Shown here piece after piece: positions 20,260 through 34,204 of a stretch of 64,000 bases of DNA. Position 1 is the stretch's first letter. Each line of letters opens with the position of its first letter. Where the stretch lies: IMG/VR virus record IMGVR_UViG_3300044823_000365, positions 91,257-155,256 of that record; one strand, written 5' to 3'. Source of the stretch: a virus. Below the pieces are notes generated by a model, which searched no databases, was not told the origin of the DNA, and was given only the letters and a program-made list of their open reading frames with translations. The translations under genes were made by a program, and so were the position numbers.

Positions 20260-21183
20260 CTAGTCCGCATTTTCCGTCAACTCCTCGTAAGTAATCCGCT
20301 TCCCCGCCACGGCGTCCACCAAGCTGTCCAGCCGCTCGAAAGTATGCCTGCCAACATTTCCTTCGTTGAGCCTGAACGCAAACTCATCCATATATCGCTG
20401 TAGATGCTTCTTGCTGGCGTGATGGTAGACCCCGTGCAATCCTCGCTTCATCACGGCCCATACAGATTCAATTCCGTTCGTGTGCACGTCGCCCCGCACA
20501 TACTCGTCCTTGACGTGTTTGACCGTTTGGACTTCGTAGCCTTGCTTGCCCAGTTTCGTGTAGCTGGGATTTTCGTCCGCCATGAGGCGGGTTCCCAACC
20601 CCACGCTGGCTGTGACGGCGTTCCGAATTGCGGTCCCGCCGTGACTCTGGAGAATCTTGGCAACCGTCCTGCCGCCCCGTTCCCGCATCCCGATGACGAC
20701 CGTCTTTGGCGGGACTCCCCTGCGGAGCCTGACGCTCATGTGCTTGTTATCCTCCAAGCCTCCGATGACCGTCTCATCCGCCTCCACGGTGCCGTGCAGC
20801 ATCTCAACCTTAGCCCCGCACGCTTCCCTGAGCCTCTGGAGCATGAACCATGCCGTATGCTGCTTGACGCCGATCTCTTTGCTCAGTTGCAGAGACGAAA
20901 TGCCCTCGCGGGCTGTGACGAGCAGGTACATCGCATAGACCCACTTATGCAGAGGCACGTGGGAGCGACCGAAGATGGTTCCCGTCCTGACCGTGAATTC
21001 CAATCGGCAGGGATTGCAGAGGTGGAACCCCCTCCTGCCCTTGCGGGGCGTGCTGTCCTTCGTGCCGCACTTCGGGCAGACGATGCCACACTTCCACAGG
21101 CGGCGTTCAATGTAGGCCCGGGCGGACTTCTCGTCGGGGAACCGCTCGAATAGCTCGAAGGTGCTTATTGTGCTGCGGCTCAT
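20260..21183 (-). CDS. IS1595/ISXO2-family DDE transposase
   Basis: 307 aa. The N-terminal zinc ribbon (CPKCG...CNPCR) is typical of ISXO2-like proteins. The DDE-type core shows VEADETVIGG (first Asp/Glu), MADENPSY (second Asp) and HTNGIESVWAVMKRG (third region). It looks full-length and intact. ATG overlaps the stop of the preceding gene (TAATG), so it is translationally coupled to the endonuclease rather than standing alone as in a simple IS. Confidence 0.85.
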   Translation of the reverse strand: MSRSTISTFELFERFPDEKSARAYIERRLWKCGIVCPKCGTKDSTPRKGRRGFHLCNPCRLEFTVRTGTIFGRSHVPLHKWVYAMYLLVTAREGISSLQLSKEIGVKQHTAWFMLQRLREACGAKVEMLHGTVEADETVIGGLEDNKHMSVRLRRGVPPKTVVIGMRERGGRTVAKILQSHGGTAIRNAVTASVGLGTRLMADENPSYTKLGKQGYEVQTVKHVKDEYVRGDVHTNGIESVWAVMKRGLHGVYHHASKKHLQRYMDEFAFRLNEGNVGRHTFERLDSLVDAVAGKRITYEELTENAD

Positions 21184-23606: not shown

Positions 23607-23636
23607 TTGACAGTTTTCCAGCTACCGCAGTATTAT
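23607..23636 (+). promoter_or_regulatory. Consensus sigma70 promoter of the Leu/Tyr tRNA operon
   Basis: TTGACA (23607-23612), 18-nt spacer, TATTAT (23631-23636). The -10 is an AGTATTAT copy. It drives the leader peptide and the tRNAs. Confidence 0.85.
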
Positions 23637-23652
23637 GTAGACGGAGACTTTT

Positions 23653-23730
23653 ATGACCCCGATGGCCCTATTATCGTTGCGACTGTATAGCTACCTTCGT
23701 AGCTTCGGCAGCGGTATGTCCATCGGGTAA
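23653..23730 (+). CDS. Leader peptide of the Leu/Tyr tRNA operon (25 aa)
   Basis: ATG with SD GGAG 6 nt upstream. Five Leu residues use five different codons: CTA (23668), TTA (23671), TTG (23677), CTG (23683) and CTT (23695); two Tyr use TAT (23686) and TAC (23692). Each downstream tRNA, Tyr(GTA), Leu(TAG), Leu(GAG), Leu(CAA), Leu(TAA) and Leu(CAG), has a matching codon here. A terminator follows at 23756. This is the layout of an attenuator leader, so stalling at a scarce-tRNA codon should promote transcription into the tRNAs. Mechanism inferred; codon match seen directly. Confidence 0.7.
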   Translation: MTPMALLSLRLYSYLRSFGSGMSIG

Positions 23731-23768
23731 ACGAAATTACAGCCCCGGTACCGACAGAGCCGCTGAAG
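23703..23768 (+). promoter_or_regulatory. Putative antiterminator pairing
   Basis: CTT (23703-23705) and CAGCGG (23709-23714) can pair with AAG (23766-23768) and CCGCTG (23760-23765). The second strand covers the 5' arm and loop of the terminator, so the two structures exclude each other. The first strand lies at the end of the leader ORF, where a ribosome that reaches the stop codon would cover it. Confidence 0.5.
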
Positions 23769-23792
23769 CGATTCGGCGGCTCTATTGTTTTT
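23756..23792 (+). terminator. Intrinsic terminator between leader and tRNAs
   Basis: AGAGCCGC (23756-23763) pairs with GCGGCTCT (23776-23783), followed by ATTGTTTTT. It lies 15 nt before the first tRNA, so it would block the whole cluster unless overcome. Confidence 0.85.
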
Positions 23793-23807
23793 GGGGTGAA
23801 GAGTTTT

Positions 23808-23895
23808 GGAGCGAACGCACCAATGGCGGTGCACCGGGCTGTAGACCTGGCGTCCCTTGCGGACATGGCAGGTTCGATGCCCGCTCGCTCCACCA
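23808..23895 (+). tRNA. tRNA-Tyr (anticodon GTA)
   Basis: Acceptor GGAGCGA/TCGCTCC, anticodon arm CCGGG-CTGTAGA-CCTGG, variable arm GTCC/GGAC, encoded CCA. One mismatch in the T stem. Type II tRNA, as bacterial Tyr tRNAs are. Confidence 0.9.
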
Positions 23896-23904
23896 GTTTG
23901 AAGT

Positions 23905-23984
23905 GCGCAGGTGAAGGGAATCTTGGCATACCTCGTACGCTTAGAACGTACGGCTTGCGGGTTCGAGTCCCGCTCTGCGCACCA
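23905..23984 (+). tRNA. tRNA-Leu (anticodon TAG)
   Basis: Acceptor GCGCAGG/TCTGCGC, discriminator A, anticodon arm GTACG-CTTAGAA-CGTAC, T arm GCGGG-TTCGAGT-CCCGC, encoded CCA. Variable region shorter than usual for Leu. Reads CTA (and possibly other CTN). Confidence 0.88.
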
Positions 23985-23996
23985 AGATATAGATTC

Positions 23997-24087
23997 GCGG
24001 GCGTGGCGAAACTTGGCGAGACGCACCAGCTTGAGGGGCTGGCGGAGGTTAAACTCCGTGGTGGTTCGAATCCACTCGCCCGCACCA
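23997..24087 (+). tRNA. tRNA-Leu (anticodon GAG)
   Basis: Acceptor GCGGGCG/CGCCCGC, anticodon arm CCAGC-TTGAGGG-GCTGG, long variable arm, encoded CCA. Reads CTC and CTT. Confidence 0.92.
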
Positions 24088-24093
24088 AAATTT

Positions 24094-24183
24094 GGCGGAT
24101 TGGCGGAACTGGCAGACGCAGCAGACTCAAAATCTGCCGGGACTTAGCAGCCCGTGAGAGTTCGAGTCTCTCATCCGCCACCA
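24094..24183 (+). tRNA. tRNA-Leu (anticodon CAA)
   Basis: Acceptor GGCGGAT/ATCCGCC, anticodon arm GCAGA-CTCAAAA-TCTGC, variable arm CGGG...CCCG, encoded CCA. Reads TTG. Confidence 0.93.
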
Positions 24184-24188
24184 ACTTT

Positions 24189-24279
24189 GCGGGAGCAGCC
24201 CGATTGGCCGGAGGCCGTGGACTTAAAATCCACTGGGGCGCAAGCCCCCTTGTGAGTTCGACTCTCACCTTCCGCACCA
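24189..24279 (+). tRNA. tRNA-Leu (anticodon TAA)
   Basis: Acceptor GCGGGAG/CTTCCGC, anticodon arm GTGGA-CTTAAAA-TCCAC, long variable arm, encoded CCA. Reads TTA (and TTG by wobble). Confidence 0.92.
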
Positions 24280-24284
24280 AGTTT

Positions 24285-24361
24285 GGCCGACTAGGAGAAC
24301 CGGCATATCCGCTTCCCTCAGAAGGAAGATTTTCGGGGTTCGAATCCCCGGTCGGCCACCA
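24285..24361 (+). tRNA. tRNA with anticodon CAG (Leu), class I body
   Basis: Acceptor GGCCGAC/GTCGGCC, discriminator A, anticodon arm CTTCC-CTCAGAA-GGAAG, T arm CGGGG-TTCGAAT-CCCCG, encoded CCA. The variable loop has only five bases (ATTTT), unlike normal Leu tRNAs, which have a long arm. The leader peptide's CTG codon supports the Leu assignment. Confidence 0.88.
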
Positions 24362-24420: not shown

Positions 24421-24924
24421 ATGAGACATGTAAAGTACACAAAAGAGGTTTTGTCTCCGCTTGTAGCAGATAGTTTAACCCTTGCGGAAATAATCCGCAA
24501 ATTGGGGCTGCGGCAAAGCGGGGGGACACAAGGAAACATTTCTCGATGGATAAGAATTTATGGGCTTGACACGTCCCACTTTTTGGGCCGACGGAGGAAC
24601 AGGGGAGTACGTCCCAAAAATCGTCGTCAATGGGAGGAGATTTTAGTTCTTCGCTCGCCAGAACAACGGAAAGAACACGCCGCAGTTTTACGTCGGGCGT
24701 TGATTGAATCGGGTGTTCCGTACGAATGTTGTAAATGCCATTGTCTCCCCATTTGGCGAGGAGAACCGCTAATTCTGGAAATAGACCATGAAAGCGGACA
24801 ATGGTGGGACAACCGAAAAAACAATTTGAGATTTTTGTGCCCCAATTGCCACTCGCAAACCGAAACATGGGGAAGAAAAGGCCCAAGCGTCCGTACTGAA
24901 ACTTTGGCAGCCGCCATAGGCTGA
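24421..24924 (+). CDS. HNH homing endonuclease inside the tRNA cluster
   Basis: 167 aa. The N-terminal part has a helix-turn-helix-like stretch (LTLAEIIRKLGLRQSGG...ISRWIRIYG), then CCKCH, LEIDHESGQWWDN and LRFLCPNCHSQ, an HNH core with zinc Cys. It separates a tRNA-like 5' piece from a tRNA 3' end, so it has probably invaded a seventh tRNA gene. Confidence 0.85.
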   Translation: MRHVKYTKEVLSPLVADSLTLAEIIRKLGLRQSGGTQGNISRWIRIYGLDTSHFLGRRRNRGVRPKNRRQWEEILVLRSPEQRKEHAAVLRRALIESGVPYECCKCHCLPIWRGEPLILEIDHESGQWWDNRKNNLRFLCPNCHSQTETWGRKGPSVRTETLAAAIG

Positions 24925-27405: not shown

Positions 27406-29235
27406 ATGGGCAAAAACCGCGATTACAACGAAGACGAGCCGGAAACAGCAACAGAAGGCCAGCCGAAACGCGACAGCGGCGGAGTCGCGGACGACGACCA
27501 GAACGAGTACTACCACTGGAGCCTGCACAAGGGGCTGTACCGCCCCGTGGGCAAGACCCAGGATACCGTCCCCGCTGGCATCTACGAGATCGACAACGAC
27601 AATGCGGGCTGGTACCTCAGCAAGGTCAAGTTCCCGTCCGACACCCTGCTCCGGCTGCCGGGCATGCCCATCGACTACATCCTCGACCAGATCAAGGTCT
27701 TCTGGGAGCGCGAAAGCCTTTTCCAGCAGACGGGGCTGCTGCACAAGCGGGGCATCCTCATGTACGGCCCGGCGGGGTCGGGAAAGACCAGCATCATCCG
27801 CCTGCTGTGCGACGACGTTGTGAAGCGCGACGGCATCGTGGTCATGGTCACCAATTGCAGGCTGGCCGAGAACGCCCTCGGCGGCATCCGCCAGATCGAG
27901 GCGCGGCGGCCGATCCTCACCATCATCGAGGACATCGAGACTTTCATGGGGAGCAGCGACGAGTCCTCGTCCGCCCGCGCCCTGCTGGCGCTCCTCGACG
28001 GCGAGACGCAGGTGGAGCATATAGTCCATCTCGCTTGTCCTGCCCCTGAAACACGTATTTTGAAGGCCGATCTTTCCTGGGTACGGGCAGATGAACTAGT
28101 ACCGGGAGATAGAATAGCGGCCTTTGATGAGACCCGCAAATTCGGCAAAGGTCTGGGAAGAAAGCTGAGAGTTGCTACAGTTGAAGCCTGCCCGCTGGTT
28201 ACAAAAAAACGGTTTCGGGTAAAAATGGAAAGCGGCACGGAAATCGTGGTTAGCGAGCACCATCCGTTCTTAGTTAAGTTAGGCTCTTGTTCTCCTGAAT
28301 GGCGTTTTGTTGAAGACCTTAAGGCGGCCAACCGAGTAGTTTCAATCGGCAAGCCATGGGAGACCGACGCTTCCGAAGCGGGAGCCTATTTGTCCGCCCA
28401 GTACGATGCGGAAGGCAGCCTCAATATCGGCGACAACAACACGGGGGGTCGGACGTTTCGTGTGAAATGGGCTCAAGCGAAGGGGATAGTAGTCGATAAG
28501 ACAAAGAAATTTCTTAACGAAACGGGGTTCAACTTCACAGCTTACGACCGCAAGCCGCAAACAACCAGCGGAGGGAGGGGGGTGTGCCAAGATGGCAAGA
28601 CCCCGCTACGTCCGCAGATAGGCATAGACCTCAAAGGAGGAAAATGGAAACAGCTTAAATTTCTCGGCTCCATTCGTCCGATCCGGCTTCTAGCCAACCA
28701 ATTGTTGTTAAAAATTTTGGATGGAACTAAAATCTGCCCGGAGTACGACAAGGTAGTGTCTGTTGAAGAAATCGGACCTGGTCCTGTTGTTGCTCTTGGA
28801 ACCAGCACCAAAACCTTTATAGGCGAGGGGTTACTTCAACACAACACCACCAACAAGCCGGACCAGCTTGAGGACCGCATCGTGAAGCGCCCCGGTCGCT
28901 TCGACCTCGTGGTGGGGCTGAACCACCCGGTGGCCGAGGCGCGGAGGGCCTACCTGCGTAACCTGCTCAAGGACCACATGCCGGAGAAGGAACTGGACGA
29001 GTTGGTCGATGCCACGGAGGGGCTGGGCTTGGCCCACCTGCGCGAGCTTGTCGTGGCGTCCTATTGCCTCGGGCTGGACCGCAAGGAGACCTTGGCCCGC
29101 CTCAAGACCAACTTCAAGAAAGGGTCGCTGAAGATCAAGTCCGGCAAGGAAACGATGGGCTTCACGGTGAATTTCCCGCAGGCGGAAGACGAAAAGCCGA
29201 GGCTCAGCCGTGTCGCCGGTGAGGAGGATGACTGA
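27406..29235 (+). CDS. BCS1-like AAA ATPase with intein at sensor 1
   Basis: 609 aa before splicing. Residues 1-45 are charged and disordered. Residues 46-118 form an N-domain (YYHWSLHKGLYRPVG). Walker A GPAGSGKTS is near 120-128 and Walker B ILTIIEDIETF near 167. The intein (residues 211-480) separates HIVHLA from TTNKPDQLED, so splicing restores sensor 1 and the RPGRFD arginine region of BCS1/AAA proteins. Residues 481-609 hold the C-terminal helical lid. BCS1-like ATPases remodel or translocate folded proteins; the phage role is unknown. Confidence 0.85.
   Translation: MGKNRDYNEDEPETATEGQPKRDSGGVADDDQNEYYHWSLHKGLYRPVGKTQDTVPAGIYEIDNDNAGWYLSKVKFPSDTLLRLPGMPIDYILDQIKVFWERESLFQQTGLLHKRGILMYGPAGSGKTSIIRLLCDDVVKRDGIVVMVTNCRLAENALGGIRQIEARRPILTIIEDIETFMGSSDESSSARALLALLDGETQVEHIVHLACPAPETRILKADLSWVRADELVPGDRIAAFDETRKFGKGLGRKLRVATVEACPLVTKKRFRVKMESGTEIVVSEHHPFLVKLGSCSPEWRFVEDLKAANRVVSIGKPWETDASEAGAYLSAQYDAEGSLNIGDNNTGGRTFRVKWAQAKGIVVDKTKKFLNETGFNFTAYDRKPQTTSGGRGVCQDGKTPLRPQIGIDLKGGKWKQLKFLGSIRPIRLLANQLLLKILDGTKICPEYDKVVSVEEIGPGPVVALGTSTKTFIGEGLLQHNTTNKPDQLEDRIVKRPGRFDLVVGLNHPVAEARRAYLRNLLKDHMPEKELDELVDATEGLGLAHLRELVVASYCLGLDRKETLARLKTNFKKGSLKIKSGKETMGFTVNFPQAEDEKPRLSRVAGEEDD
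28036..28845 (+). other. Intein in BCS1-like ATPase (270 codons)
   Basis: Cys start (CPAPETRIL), block B VVSEHHPFLV, a single DOD-like motif AGAYLSAQYDAEGSL, ending GLLQHN with Thr +1. Its C-terminal third closely resembles that of the polA intein (TSTKTFIGEGLL versus TSTKTFIAEGLL). Confidence 0.9.
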
Positions 29236-30765: not shown

Positions 30766-30794
30766 TTGACAGAAACCGGACTTTCGAGTATTAT
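30766..30794 (+). promoter_or_regulatory. Consensus sigma70 promoter of the Pro tRNA operon
   Basis: TTGACA (30766-30771), 17-nt spacer, TATTAT (30789-30794) as part of AGTATTAT, then 6 nt to the leader ATG at 30801. Confidence 0.88.
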
Positions 30795-30800
30795 CAGTGC

Positions 30801-30863
30801 ATGCGTAACTTGAACCCAATGCGACCGCAGCCCAAGTGGCTCGGGGTTTACGTGACCGATTGA
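30801..30863 (+). CDS. Leader peptide of the Pro tRNA operon (20 aa, leaderless)
   Basis: The ATG lies 6 nt after the -10 box, so the mRNA should begin at the start codon. Three Pro residues use three different codons, CCA (30816), CCG (30825) and CCC (30831), matching the tRNAs downstream: Pro(TGG), Pro(CGG) and Pro(GGG). TGACCG (30853-30858) and CGGTCA (30864-30869) form a hairpin across the stop codon, and a longer hairpin (CCCTG...CAGGG with GCGG/CCGC) follows, but no T-run terminator is clear. Codon matching is seen; control by stalling is inferred. Confidence 0.6.
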   Translation: MRNLNPMRPQPKWLGVYVTD

Positions 30864-30948
30864 CGGTCAGCGACCCTGAGCGGAATAGCCGCAGGGGTAT
30901 GGTTCAGAGCAGTTCCTTCCTGTGGTAATTCCAGTAAAAAGAGTTTAA

Positions 30949-31022
30949 CGCCGATTAGGTGGACGGACGACCGCACGTTTCGGGTACGTGACCAGCCGGT
31001 TCAATTCCGGCATCGGCGACCA
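30949..31022 (+). tRNA. tRNA-Pro (anticodon CGG)
   Basis: Acceptor CGCCGAT/ATCGGCG, D arm GGT...ACC, anticodon arm CACGT-TTCGGGT-ACGTG, T arm GCCGG-TTCAATT-CCGGC, encoded CCA. Nearly the same D arm as the next tRNA, suggesting duplication. Confidence 0.93.
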
Positions 31023-31688
31023 TCAGCCCGTAGGTGGACGGACGACCGCCTGCTTTGGGAGCAGGACCACCGAGTTCAATTCTCGGCGGGCTGACCAATT
31101 AAGGCCCATGAAGTTGGGGGTCAAGGAGTGGCAGTTGGGACAAAGTAAGTCAACATTATCGCGACGGCTGTTTTTATCATTGCCGTCTATGTGATGAAGC
31201 TGGACGGGGATGTTGCCTGTGATGGAATGGGCTTCACTCCAACCGCACCTTTGGCATTTGGCTCCGAACAGGCGGATCATTGCCCGACGTGCAAAACGCT
31301 TTGATGCAGCAAACTCGTTCTTAAGCCACAACTCTAAGTTGGACATAAATGCGGCTTCTTGATAAGAACAGGATTGTATGCAAATGGGGCAACGTTTTCC
31401 GGCCGTATTGGGAGGTCTCGTAAACTTGGCACCACAAGCAGCACAAGTGCGAGTCCTTGGTTTATTATGCGATGTTTGACCCGTCAAGTTGTGCCGGGCA
31501 GCACAGGAGTGATCGCAAAATTTCTTTGTACGAACCCAAGGGACTTTTTGGTTGTCGGGAACAAGAATGATCTTCGTGCAATGCAAACAGCGGTTTGGGT
31601 TGGCCATATATCGATCTATGGCTCGCTGGCGTTTTCTGGCGTTAGCAAGTTTTGAAGCCGCCAGAAGTTGCGGGCTTATACTGGGCAT
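31023..31688 (-). CDS. HNH homing endonuclease (minus strand)
   Basis: 221 aa. Zinc knuckles CLHC...CDHSC and CAACG...CPIC, then the nuclease CQRCGW...VQLHHIDGNDKN and VDLLCPNCHSL. The last 25 codons lie within the tRNA-Pro(TGG) gene, so the natural C-terminus may once have been shorter. It sits between Pro tRNAs with a tRNA T-arm remnant (31693-31703) on its 5' side. Confidence 0.8.
   Translation of the reverse strand: MPSISPQLLAASKLANARKRQRAIDRYMANPNRCLHCTKIILVPDNQKVPWVRTKKFCDHSCAARHNLTGQTSHNKPRTRTCAACGAKFTRPPNTAGKRCPICIQSCSYQEAAFMSNLELWLKNEFAASKRFARRAMIRLFGAKCQRCGWSEAHSITGNIPVQLHHIDGNDKNSRRDNVDLLCPNCHSLTPNFMGLNWSARRELNSVVLLPKQAVVRPPTG
31024..31097 (+). tRNA. tRNA-Pro (anticodon TGG)
   Basis: Acceptor CAGCCCG/CGGGCTG, anticodon arm CCTGC-TTTGGGA-GCAGG, T arm CCGAG-TTCAATT-CTCGG, encoded CCA. 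One base separates it from the preceding tRNA. An HNH frame on the other strand reads through it. Confidence 0.93.
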
Positions 31689-31692
31689 AAAA

Positions 31693-31703
31693 GTTCGACT
31701 CCC
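31693..31703 (+). other. tRNA T-arm remnant
   Basis: GTTCGACTCCC looks like the T loop and 3' T stem of a tRNA whose 5' part is missing; it abuts the HNH start. Confidence 0.35.
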
Positions 31704-31738
31704 TACCTCTCAATAAAGAGAAAGGAAGTCAGTTTATC

Positions 31739-31812
31739 CGGGGACAAGTGTTATGGCCGCACGCCAGCATGGGGTGCTGGTTGTCGGAGTTCAATTCTCC
31801 GGTCCCCGACCA
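31739..31812 (+). tRNA. tRNA-Pro (anticodon GGG)
   Basis: Acceptor CGGGGAC/GTCCCCG, anticodon arm CCAGC-ATGGGGT-GCTGG, T arm CGGAG-TTCAATT-CTCCG, encoded CCA. Reads CCC and CCT. Same T loop as the other two Pro tRNAs. Confidence 0.93.
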
Positions 31813-31834
31813 AGCTTTGTGGTACGATGGGAGA

Positions 31835-32011
31835 ATGAGAGCTTTCATTAAGTGTGTGACGTGGTCTCCCGCAGCATGCTTCACCTTCGGGGTGTGGCTT
31901 TCGTTGCGGGACCAGAACAACGGTATGGCCGCCTACTGTGTGCTGATGCTGATGGTAGCGTTGATCTTGCTGCGGTATCCGGGCTTCAGGCGAAGAGTCC
32001 TTGGTGAGTAG
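31835..32011 (+). CDS. Small membrane protein with two helices (58 aa)
   Basis: SD tgggag. Hydrophobic segments VTWSPAACFTFGVWLSL and YCVLMLMVALILL are separated by a polar turn, with a basic C-terminus. Holin-like size, but no family evidence. Confidence 0.55.
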   Translation: MRAFIKCVTWSPAACFTFGVWLSLRDQNNGMAAYCVLMLMVALILLRYPGFRRRVLGE

Positions 32012-32128
32012 ATGAAGATCACAGAACGGCTGTACAGATTTGCACAGGCCCACTATTGGCTGTCGCCTGTGATAGACCGGATGCGCTGGATGTTCGAGCG
32101 GAGATACGATCCGGTGGGGAAGTGGTGA
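32012..32128 (+). CDS. Small protein (38 aa)
   Basis: Starts right after the preceding stop and overlaps the next start by TGATG. Aromatic and Arg-rich (MRWMFERRYDPVGKW). Unknown. Confidence 0.45.
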   Translation: MKITERLYRFAQAHYWLSPVIDRMRWMFERRYDPVGKW

Positions 32129-32322
32129 TGGACGTTGAAGAGATGTTCGACGCATACCAGCAAGTTCTGATGAACGGGTTCGTGCCTGAAGTCATGGTCA
32201 TAGCGTACCCCGAGGGGACTTGGCTGCTGAGGCTGGGAGAGGAGCCCAAGCTGCTTGGCGAGAAAAAGGAGTTTGAACCCATCATGCTCGGCATGCTGGG
32301 CATAAGGAACTTCGGGCTGTAG
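32128..32322 (+). CDS. Small hypothetical protein (64 aa)
   Basis: TGATG overlap. Begins MDVEEMFDAYQQVLMNGF. Its last codons overlap the first 10 bases of the next tRNA gene, which constrains both. Confidence 0.55.
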   Translation: MDVEEMFDAYQQVLMNGFVPEVMVIAYPEGTWLLRLGEEPKLLGEKKEFEPIMLGMLGIRNFGL

Positions 32323-32386
32323 CGCAGTCCGGTAGCGCGCATGCCTTGGGCGCATGAGGCCGCCCGTTCGAATCGGGTCGCCCCGA
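32313..32386 (+). tRNA. tRNA-Pro (anticodon TGG), second copy
   Basis: Acceptor CGGGCTG/CGCCCCG with one mismatch, anticodon arm CATGC-CTTGGGC-GCATG, T arm GCCCG-TTCGAAT-CGGGT. Followed by TCA, not CCA. Unlike the other Pro tRNAs in its D and T arms, so of separate origin. Confidence 0.8.
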
Positions 32387-32397
32387 TCAAGTTTTGT

Positions 32398-32474
32398 GGC
32401 TGTGTCGTACAACGGTATAGTACGTCGGACTCATAACCCGAAGACGGTAGGTTCAACTCCTCCCACAGCCACCA
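32398..32474 (+). tRNA. tRNA with anticodon CAT (Met or Ile2)
   Basis: Acceptor GGCTGTG/CACAGCC, D arm GTAC/GTAC, loop CTCATAA, encoded CCA. One mismatch each in the anticodon and T stems. Elongator Met or, if C34 is modified to lysidine, Ile(ATA). Confidence 0.8.
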
Positions 32475-32500
32475 AGTTTCAAAAATCCGTCTTTTGTGGT

Positions 32501-32507
32501 AGTATTG
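32501..32507 (+). promoter_or_regulatory. AGTATTG promoter-like element
   Basis: AGTATTG 6 nt before ATGAAGAGATAA (a 3-codon ORF) and about 100 nt before the 32608 gene. Confidence 0.35.
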
Positions 32508-32540
32508 TAGAGCATGAAGAGATAAAAAGAGGAGACACAG

Positions 32541-32579
32541 ATGGCTACCAACCCTGGCAAGACTACCCACGCCGCGTAA
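32541..32579 (+). CDS. Possible 12-aa leader peptide
   Basis: MATNPGKTTHAA after SD gaggaga, ending 28 nt before the next start. Too short to judge; listed because the SD is good. Confidence 0.25.
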   Translation: MATNPGKTTHAA

Positions 32580-32607
32580 TCCTGGGCGGTCAAGGAGAAA
32601 CAGCCAT

Positions 32608-33225
32608 ATGTTGTCCAAACTTATCGACGCTTTGCGTCGGGTTTTGCAGTTCAAGGTCCGCCGCTGGCATGTCAGCATGGGGGGCTGGAACGAGCATAAT
32701 GCCCGGATTATCATCGGGTGCGATGCTCAGATTTGGTATTGGATTCTCATTGAATTCGTTGCGTGGGACCTGCAAACGTATCTCTGCCACTGGCTCGGTT
32801 ACATCCCGTTGCCGGGCTTTATTTGCCGCATCAAGGGCCACTGGGACAAGGACGAGCCCGAGTATTTCGAGCCGTTCGGGCAGTGGTTCGGCAACGACGT
32901 GGGGAGCTTGTGGCACAGCTTCGTGTGCGACCCGCTGCTCCAGTGGGTGTGGAAGCACAAGGGCCAAAACGAGGTCAGCTTCGAGTTGACGCTGGACGAG
33001 GCCCGCAAGAAGTTCGCCCACGACCCGGAGCAGTACCAGTGGGTCGAGCGGCACATCGAGGAGTACAAGCGGTACGACGCCGAGCAGACGGCCGAAATCC
33101 GGGAGAAGTACCGCAAGGGCGAACTTACCCGCGAGGAGGCCCTTGAGAAATTGGAGTGGATCGACGAAAACGACGATCTCGGCAGCGACAAGCTCGCGGA
33201 GATTCTTGACAAGGCCAGCGAATAG
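32608..33225 (+). CDS. Hypothetical aromatic-rich protein (205 aa)
   Basis: SD aaggagaaac. The N-terminal 110 residues are Trp/Phe/His-rich (WYWILIEFVAWDLQTYLCHW), possibly membrane-associated; residues 120-205 are a charged helical region (EKYRKGELTREEALEKLEW). Not recognised. Confidence 0.7.
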   Translation: MLSKLIDALRRVLQFKVRRWHVSMGGWNEHNARIIIGCDAQIWYWILIEFVAWDLQTYLCHWLGYIPLPGFICRIKGHWDKDEPEYFEPFGQWFGNDVGSLWHSFVCDPLLQWVWKHKGQNEVSFELTLDEARKKFAHDPEQYQWVERHIEEYKRYDAEQTAEIREKYRKGELTREEALEKLEWIDENDDLGSDKLAEILDKASE

Positions 33226-33265
33226 CAGTATCTATAGTAGGGAGCCGCGGGGTTCCCAGAGTTTC

Positions 33266-33404
33266 GGACGTACGGCAGCGCGGACAGCGACGCGCACCTT
33301 AAAAAGTATCGGGTTAATGAAGAAGTTAGTGCTAGTTTTTCGGTGTCTCAAACCGTGGTCGCCTACCCGAGGCTACCAAGCGGGTGCAATTCCCGCCCGT
33401 GCGT
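33266..33404 (+). ncRNA. Structured tRNA-like region of unclear type
   Basis: GGACGTACGG (33266-33275) can pair with CCGTGCGTCC (33395-33404). Inside are GCGC...GCGC (D-arm-like) and a canonical T-arm-like GCGGG-TGCAATT-CCCGC (33380-33396). The enclosed length (about 140 nt) is too long for a normal tRNA, so it may be a tRNA with an insertion or another RNA. Confidence 0.35.
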
Positions 33405-33418
33405 CCGGAAAGTTCGCC

Positions 33419-34130
33419 ACTAACGCTAGAGTTTCAAATATCCATGGTCAAATTCCCAGTGGCATCTGCGACACAGCGGGATGAGATTCTCGATGTTGTT
33501 TATCTCTGTGATGAGGGTCATATCTGGAAACTCGCTCACCCCTTTCTTATGGGCGATTTCGATGTACAATGAGTAACCGCAGTTGGGGGCAACGCAGGCT
33601 TTGGGACACCCTGACCGGTCGTACACGTAAGCGGCATGATAGCGTATTGTACTTCGAGCCGATTGCCAGTTCTTGCGCCGGGCAAACAGTTCACCTTTTG
33701 TGACACCGACCATAAATACCCCAGCTTGTCTGGCATTTGATTTCTGACAAGAGCGGCAAAAACGGCGAGAGGTGGAAATACGGGCTGTTTTACAGCGACC
33801 GCAGTATTTTAATCCATCCCCGGTTCCTTTGCGGTTGTTGTTGTATTTGGCGGCGCAAGAAAAACCGCAGAATTTCTTGATAATTGTTTCTCGTAATGGA
33901 GTTTTTCTGGTATTATTTAGAGGAGCAAGAATCGGTCCTTTGCAGTATTGGCAAAGGTTCGGATTTTCGTTGTATTTCATGAGGCGTTGCCAGGCTTCGT
34001 TTTTCTGCTGTAAAGCCCTCGCAGCACCGCCCATCTTTTGGGCAACGGCTAAGTTGGGATTACGGATGTAATTAGTCATTTGGACTCCTTACTGAGCTAT
34101 ATGAAAGCTGTATTTTTGTGCAACTAACGC
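33419..34130. repeat. ACTAACGC direct repeats flanking an HNH gene
   Basis: ACTAACGC occurs at 33419-33426 and 34123-34130, exactly bracketing the minus-strand HNH gene. The right copy overlaps the first bases of the initiator tRNA. Confidence 0.6.
33426..34079 (-). CDS. HNH homing endonuclease (minus strand)
   Basis: 217 aa. Zinc modules CQYCKG...CGFSC and CGRC...CRSCQ, then CVAPNCGYS, LYIEIAHKKGVSEF and IPLCRRCHWEFDHG, a divergent HNH core. N-terminal organisation resembles the HNH at 31023 (both begin with a basic helix and an NPNxC knuckle), suggesting common origin. Inserted just upstream of the initiator tRNA. Confidence 0.8.
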   Translation of the reverse strand: MTNYIRNPNLAVAQKMGGAARALQQKNEAWQRLMKYNENPNLCQYCKGPILAPLNNTRKTPLRETIIKKFCGFSCAAKYNNNRKGTGDGLKYCGRCKTARISTSRRFCRSCQKSNARQAGVFMVGVTKGELFARRKNWQSARSTIRYHAAYVYDRSGCPKACVAPNCGYSLYIEIAHKKGVSEFPDMTLITEINNIENLIPLCRRCHWEFDHGYLKL

Positions 34131-34204
34131 GGTGTGGAGCAGCCCGGTAGCTCGTTTGGCTCATAACCAAAAGGTCGTAGGTTCAAATCCTACCACCGCA
34201 ACCA
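34128..34204 (+). tRNA. Initiator-type tRNA-fMet (anticodon CAT)
   Basis: 77 nt. C1 and A72 are unpaired (CGCGGTG/CACCGCA), the key bacterial initiator feature. The D arm GAGC...GCTC and the loop CTCATAA match bacterial tRNA-fMet closely. The anticodon stem is TTTGG/CCAAA, with two of the usual three G-C pairs. T arm GTAGG-TTCAAAT-CCTAC, discriminator A, encoded CCA. Confidence 0.88.

Follow-up and report, generated by a model that had tools for sequence, protein, structure and literature searches.

It is an open question why phages carry tRNA genes and at what time these are expressed. Between a promoter and a run of viral tRNA genes for tyrosine and leucine lies a short open reading frame (ORF) with Leu and Tyr codons, followed by a terminator. 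Does this ORF encode a leader peptide that governs the operon behind it by attenuation, as a preliminary description had proposed? The locus (23607-24361) belongs to the window, that is, the whole stretch of 64,000 nucleotides analysed, which constitutes the final 64 kb of a 155,256-base IMG/VR virus record. Every checked detail of the proposed arrangement (promoter, 25-aa ORF, five different Leu codons, both Tyr codons, terminator and tRNA set) turned out to be correct, and the locus is organised as follows.

23607-23636, plus strand: sigma-70-type promoter, TTGACA-18-TATTAT, 11 of 12 matches; the relatives' leaders are likewise preceded by a TATTAT-like -10
23643-23646, plus strand: Shine-Dalgarno GGAG, 6 nt ahead of the ATG, read from the sequence
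23653-23730, plus strand: leader peptide ORF MTPMALLSLRLYSYLRSFGSGMSIG, 25 aa, putative Leu/Tyr sensor; frame backed by the alignment of relatives described below
23672-23682, plus strand: region 1 (Leu codons), paired with region 2 without a ribosome in the minimum-energy fold
23708-23721, plus strand: region 2, antiterminator strand, lying 9-23 nt ahead of the stop codon's end; relative to L470, one A-U to G-C exchange is compensatory
23756-23767, plus strand: region 3, terminator 5' arm, in which CCGCTG (23760-23765) pairs with region 2
23772-23792, plus strand: region 4, terminator 3' arm and T tract, from sequence and terminator scan
23808-23895, plus strand: tRNA-Tyr (GTA)
23905-23984, plus strand: tRNA-Leu (TAG)
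23997-24087, plus strand: tRNA-Leu (GAG)
24094-24183, plus strand: tRNA-Leu (CAA)
24189-24279, plus strand: tRNA-Leu (TAA)
24285-24361, plus strand: tRNA-Leu (CAG)

Within the ORF, leucine is encoded by CTA, TTA, TTG, CTG and CTT and tyrosine by TAT and TAC. The claim that each tRNA finds its codon in the leader holds for all six tRNAs as far as a readable codon is concerned, and for five of them at the Watson-Crick level, CTT being read by tRNA-Leu (GAG) via wobble. An overlapping frame at 23607-23690 was rejected as the leader because it begins within the promoter, and no Rfam support was obtained for another known cis-regulatory RNA at the locus. The terminator stem (23756-23783) comprises 12 pairs and is followed by ATTGTTTTT. 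Leader and terminator together fold at -66.5 kcal/mol (z = -4.9 versus shuffles); the minimum-energy fold contains a 1:2 hairpin within the ORF plus the 3:4 terminator, with the 2:3 pairing as the alternative. The latter is the rival pairing that had been suggested to disrupt the terminator, and it proved real: GCAGCGGTATGTCC (23708-23721) pairs with the terminator 5' arm at -18.2 kcal/mol, against -12.4 kcal/mol when the leader is shuffled (p about 0.03). The peptide contains 7 Leu/Tyr in 24 residues, with a rank of 0.07-0.09 among other tRNA sets. Taken alone, this amino-acid match is unremarkable; it is through comparison with other arrays that the match is seen to lie far beyond chance.

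Leaders of the same virus and of its relatives

The virus of the window has three tRNA operons, every one behind a leader that matches its own tRNAs. The second, a Pro/Met operon, has the following parts.

30766-30794, plus strand: promoter TTGACA-17-TATTAT, ending 6 nt ahead of the ORF, read from the sequence
30801-30863, plus strand: second leader ORF MRNLNPMRPQPKWLGVYVTD, with CCA, CCG, CCC and ATG codons; six relatives have a Pro/Met leader before Pro tRNAs
30838-30902, plus strand: competing hairpins GCTCGGGGT:ACCCTGAGC versus CCCTGAGCGG:CCGCAGGGG
30949-34204, plus strand: tRNA-Pro (CGG, TGG, GGG, TGG) and two tRNA-Met, with HNH-type ORFs interspersed

A U-tract terminator for the Pro/Met operon was found neither in the window phage nor in most relatives, and the mechanism of this operon is less certain. 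The third operon (L015, G000:74926-77959, outside the window) comprises 14 tRNAs for Val, Gly, Ala, Asp, Cys, Glu and Phe, preceded by the ORF MNRSLQFVAAADTLGGVCAVGAFEGFAAGADTVSSEDGWEG and a terminator, and its leader carries an exact Watson-Crick codon for 14 of 14 anticodons. Isoacceptors stand together in this virus: all 26 same-amino-acid pairs share an operon, while 10.1 would be expected if the genes were shuffled, an arrangement to which tandem duplication could have contributed.

Several other elements accompany these tRNA genes. A class A bacterial RNase P RNA gene (Rfam RF00010, 209 bits, E 2.8e-67) lies inside the L015 operon at L015:3151-3475 (G000:C1 about 75650-75974), so that the ribozyme which processes the tRNAs seems to share the leader control of its substrates. 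A structured tRNA-like stretch with a TTGACA box of its own precedes the third leader at L015:about 1896-2090 (GGAAGCTGCCCG ... CGGGCAGCTTCCG); it includes the T-arm-like GGTTTTGACTCC and matches no Rfam family at the gathering threshold. A CUA-anticodon tRNA at L016:1659-1731 (G000:C1:1659-1731, minus strand), labelled Pyl by ARAGORN, may be an amber suppressor. Among the tRNA genes of the window, HNH-type ORFs occupy 24421-24924, 31023-31688 (minus strand) and 33426-34079 (minus strand).

Relatives of the virus were taken from DNA polymerase matches at 48-64% identity, which were searched for tRNAs and their arrays retrieved; the adjacent nuclease gene led to no close relatives, and the sole match of a terminase search was a near-identical sister contig. 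These relatives have up to five types of tRNA operon, with a separate leader for each. All four that possess an intact Tyr/Leu operon and its upstream DNA retain the leader (MTHVTLSPSLRLYSLYLSYRRGGVFKG, MTNLTLSLTLYSLLSGLHGGVFIG, MTRLTLSSLRLYSYLSGFSGGVFEGLN and MTRVTLSLSLLYTLLSGVGGGVFEG), its Leu/Tyr codons and a GC-rich terminator. The pattern named beforehand as speaking against attenuation, tRNAs retained in relatives that lack the leader codons or the terminator, was thus looked for and not seen in these four. When the window leader is aligned with these four, the gaps within the ORF are multiples of three, which speaks for its translation. Helix 2:3 displays a compensatory change, being CAGCGGT:GCCGCTG in the window and CGGCGGT:GCCGCCG in L470. 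The L471 leader has TTA and its operon is without tRNA-Leu (TAA). Regarding the other operon types, MNTMRPTPMFRPCTPTVRGGEVL is an example of a Pro/Met leader, MTSQTRTTTSTQRITTATTGGFTFEDGWDG is the Ile/Thr/Gln leader, the Val/Ala/Gly/Asp/Cys/Glu leader (MSFLNANSTAADTIFGRNVVACAGTVAAEAAAVNEGDTMSLGGFGE) has the exact codon for 16 of 16 tRNAs, and the Trp/His/Arg/Asn/Gln/Lys leader (MKHNTVARKQWRNRRHDGVGLSSDTEFGK) contains all four CGN Arg codons, with four Arg anticodons in the operon.

Leaders and tRNA sets in unrelated phages

The HNH protein encoded at 24421-24924, whose family marks tRNA arrays in many phages and makes a very effective bait, led to L003, in which MNTLSLSLSLSYSSLYLFSDGEGCVLT and a 22-pair terminator precede Tyr, four Ser, Leu and Phe tRNAs. 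Arrays were gathered, among the matches listed, by HNH alignment and, independently of any protein, by T-arm pattern. The survey considered arrays whose first tRNA has an intrinsic terminator at most 220 nt upstream, and all candidate ORFs ending before the terminator were scored for enrichment of the amino acids of their own tRNA set over a background of local base composition. The sets of other arrays served as the null, and the best ORF was chosen identically for own and permuted sets.

Among the matches listed, the viral survey (n = 70) gave a mean score of 1.27 versus 0.64 for permuted sets (z = 9.0, 0 of 5000 permutations), with at least 24 of the 70 arrays in the top tenth of ranks, where 7 were expected. 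Controls from the same matches listed yielded z = -0.3 on the opposite strand, z = 1.4 for first tRNAs without a terminator (n = 238) and z = -2.1 for internal tRNAs without one (n = 574). An independent viral sample, again among the matches listed and with the pipeline fixed, gave z = 5.3 (n = 25, 0 of 5000; opposite strand z = -0.9), and bacterial tRNA clusters showed no leader signal (22 sites, z = 0.7). The match was also examined within genomes that have several operons, using all upstream ORFs with no choice of ORF, an unbiased version preferred over a cross-assignment with hand-picked leaders. Here the upstream ORFs of an array matched their own tRNA set best in 28 of 41 cases, with 13 expected (0 of 200,000 permutations; p = 0.013 for cultivated phages alone). 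The expectation that leader and tRNA content covary is borne out whether operon types, the operons of one genome or unrelated phages are compared.

Individual arrays illustrate the correspondence. In L382, MNITQVNPQPQDQDPGRMANYVFTIS lies ahead of Gln, Asp and Pro tRNAs, and in L357 a single contig carries two arrays, MRTINKHKHFSKSSKWFSNKSELGT... preceding Lys, His, Phe and Trp and MRTINLNMINVNNTLNTVMVLNTLC... preceding Asn, Ile, Thr and Leu. An extra leader and terminator also occur inside arrays, before a sub-group of tRNAs, at L135:7807 and 8653 and at L042:6525, which suggests nested attenuators. The leader-terminator-tRNA design recurs in many unrelated phages, cultivated ones included. 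In Bacillus phage G, MKCSWFEFDTDFTDVFYCEYTFYSLYTFLDIRKQLQKSRGCLT, which is annotated as gp86, is followed by a terminator and by Cys, Asp, Phe, Tyr, Glu, Thr, Ser and Trp tRNAs, and gp86 contains eight of the eight operon amino acids. Tunturi_5 has three leaders, such as MKTLCLSSYCLSSSLSLSDGWD... ahead of Leu, Cys, Tyr and Ser, and two are present in Caulobacter phage CcrColossus, such as MTYRNNVRQIRVRQFNLAG... ahead of Val, Ile, Gln, Asn and Arg. Many phage tRNA arrays do without the element, and examination of T4, T5, phiAbaA1, DSS3_MAL1, Phabio, avDM6, ANB28, XacN1 and Atu_ph07 revealed no convincing leader. A tblastn search of the leader peptides, which are very short queries, gave no match in cultivated phages. 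In Staphylococcus phage K, very abundant lncRNAs with no evident attenuator have been reported upstream of weakly transcribed tRNA genes (PMC11598898); no tRNA-matching leader precedes its Asp/Phe/Trp or Met tRNAs (KF766114, 13,688-14,215 and 38,024-38,566), and its lncRNA looks like a different RNA element.

Regarding the level at which the match operates, codons for the isoacceptors encoded downstream were compared with synonymous shuffles of leaders that had been picked partly for overall match: coverage was 121 of 126 versus 108.7 in the family (z = 3.3) and 90 of 100 versus 82.8 in other leaders (z = 2.2), and z was about 2 when only Watson-Crick pairs were counted. Codon matching is mainly at the amino-acid level and the excess of isoacceptor codons is modest; with this qualification the attenuation reading of the preliminary description is supported.

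It is unlikely that the leader acts instead on RNA stability or tRNA processing, with a stalled ribosome refolding the region of the first tRNA and altering its maturation or decay. Such a role would suit the Pro/Met operons, with their competing hairpins and no U-tract, and some matched arrays, such as L017 and L194, in which the scan detected no terminator. However, a canonical intrinsic terminator follows most matched leaders and, on average, the match vanishes in terminator-less arrays, both of which argue against such a role.

Folding of the leaders around a stalled ribosome

At 21 of 39 matched sites the leader is more complementary to the terminator 5' arm than its dinucleotide-shuffled versions are (p < 0.05; mean z -1.98), compared with 1 of 22 bacterial sites at the same threshold. 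Across matched leaders, region 2 extends at the median from 21 to 8 nt upstream of the stop codon's end, so that a terminating ribosome would cover it. Stalling was simulated, in leaders picked partly for their match, by placing a ribosome with a 14-nt downstream footprint on each codon and reading out the probability that region 3 pairs upstream. In this model the probability is high when the ribosome stalls early in the ORF and declines as the stall approaches the stop codon; it drops, for example, from 0.96 to 0.01 in L470 and, in the window leader, from about 0.7 to 0.27. A stall at a matched codon favours the antiterminator, which is lost once the ribosome stands on the stop codon; this computed behaviour is the one that had been proposed for the Tyr/Leu leader.

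The fold, computed blind to the tRNAs, marks a decision point in each ORF. In leaders picked partly for overall match, though not for any asymmetry around this point, codons matching the operon account for 351 of 496 (71%) before it and 96 of 288 (33%) after it (Fisher 1.4e-24; Wilcoxon over 27 leaders 2e-7). The window leader has 7 matching codons among 15 before the decision point and 0 among 9 after. With no ribosome in the model the antiterminator is also favoured in most leaders, so strong default termination is not predicted; since the antiterminator would be free without a ribosome, general translation failure might also switch the operons on.

These data weigh against a fixed terminator with an incidental short ORF, an arrangement that would provide low constant tRNA transcription and in which peptide composition would reflect chance or base composition. 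We consider it very improbable: it agrees with the window leader taken alone, which is not significant (rank 0.09), but it is opposed by the base-composition-aware permutation tests, the null controls, the within-genome assignment and the asymmetry of matched codons, and for the phage set it has already been refuted statistically.

Proposed mechanism and known systems

Judged by their sequences, the Tyr/Leu and Val/Ala/Gly operons have every sequence-testable feature of ribosome-mediated attenuation. A leader ORF with a ribosome-binding site and cognate codons stands between the promoter and the first gene, an antiterminator pairing is available, and the computed positions of stalled and terminating ribosomes are arranged around region 2; an intrinsic terminator is present in these two operons and absent from the Pro/Met operon. 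Together with the comparison of arrays and the folding model, this makes it very probable that each tRNA operon is controlled by ribosome-mediated transcription attenuation, as a negative-feedback loop of tRNA supply built from amino-acid-coherent operons. RNA polymerase would start at the promoter and a ribosome would start on the leader. When the tRNA set is plentiful, the ribosome would reach the stop codon and cover region 2, the 3:4 terminator would form and tRNA transcription would halt. When any charged tRNA of the set is short, because of host tRNases, host shut-off or demand, the ribosome would stall early in the leader, on a codon for that tRNA, and leave region 2 free; the 2:3 pairing would then preclude the terminator and the tRNAs would be made. 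The loop would be one of negative feedback because its output is the molecule sensed. The tRNAs of the phage are grouped by amino acid, and a separate leader heads every operon.

Ribosome-mediated attenuators govern amino acid biosynthetic operons such as trp, his, leu, thr and ilv, and their theory has been treated in PMC1183508. The phage design shares with them regulatory codons inside a short leader ORF, 1:2, 2:3 and 3:4 helices that exclude one another, an intrinsic terminator and a region 2 that a terminating ribosome covers. The ilv and thr leaders respond to more than a single amino acid; the phage leaders differ in that they would sense many (seven in L015), divided among several operons, and would control viral tRNA genes whose charged products are what is sensed. 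In pheST-type attenuation, a leader peptide senses charged tRNA and controls genes for an aminoacyl-tRNA synthetase. There too a charged-tRNA-sensing leader governs the supply of charged tRNA, but the target is a host synthetase protein and not tRNA genes. T-box riboswitches likewise let tRNA charging drive a transcriptional choice, although they bind tRNA directly and without translation. That a T-box-like RNA of this kind, bound by uncharged tRNA, operates here is scarcely credible, for although tRNAs are what the operon yields and GGTACCG occurs ahead of the terminator, a T-box with its stem I, specifier loop and T-box bulge was not recognised by Rfam even at a permissive E-value, and the frame and codon content of the ORF are kept in relatives.

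The new elements of the attenuation design are its viral tRNA operon target, its closed loop, the number of amino acids per leader and their division among several operons. No precedent for leader-peptide attenuation of phage tRNA operons was found in open-access PubMed Central full text, in agreement with the earlier impression of novelty. Work on retron-Eco7 (PMC11555353) and on PARIS AriB (PMC12409363) describes phage tRNAs that replace depleted host tRNAs, including tRNA-Tyr, and neither paper mentions leader or attenuation control. The operons described here resemble these counter-defence tRNAs in supplying depleted tRNAs; an inducible sensor would add regulation. A bolder and more tentative proposal is that the leaders serve as tRNA-shortage sensors, one per operon and together covering most amino acids, by which large phages may detect and repair specific losses of host tRNA, such as anticodon-nuclease cleavage, inducing only the affected group.

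A leader that spells out the amino acids it senses makes the purpose of phage tRNAs and the timing of their expression directly testable, as it would state what the phage expects to run short of. The tests can be made immediately because laboratory phages already carry the design. The design points to phage tRNAs as a supply that is inducible and self-limiting, provides a rationale for their sorting into amino-acid-coherent operons and offers natural sensors for shortage of several amino acids' tRNAs at once.

Two further genes of the window deserve mention. An AAA ATPase is encoded at 27406-29235, and its middle part, from about residue 210, looks like an inserted intein (CPAPETRILKADLSWVRADELVPGD ... 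LLQHN). A complete IS1595-family transposase gene (Pfam PF12762) is located at 20260-21183 on the minus strand.
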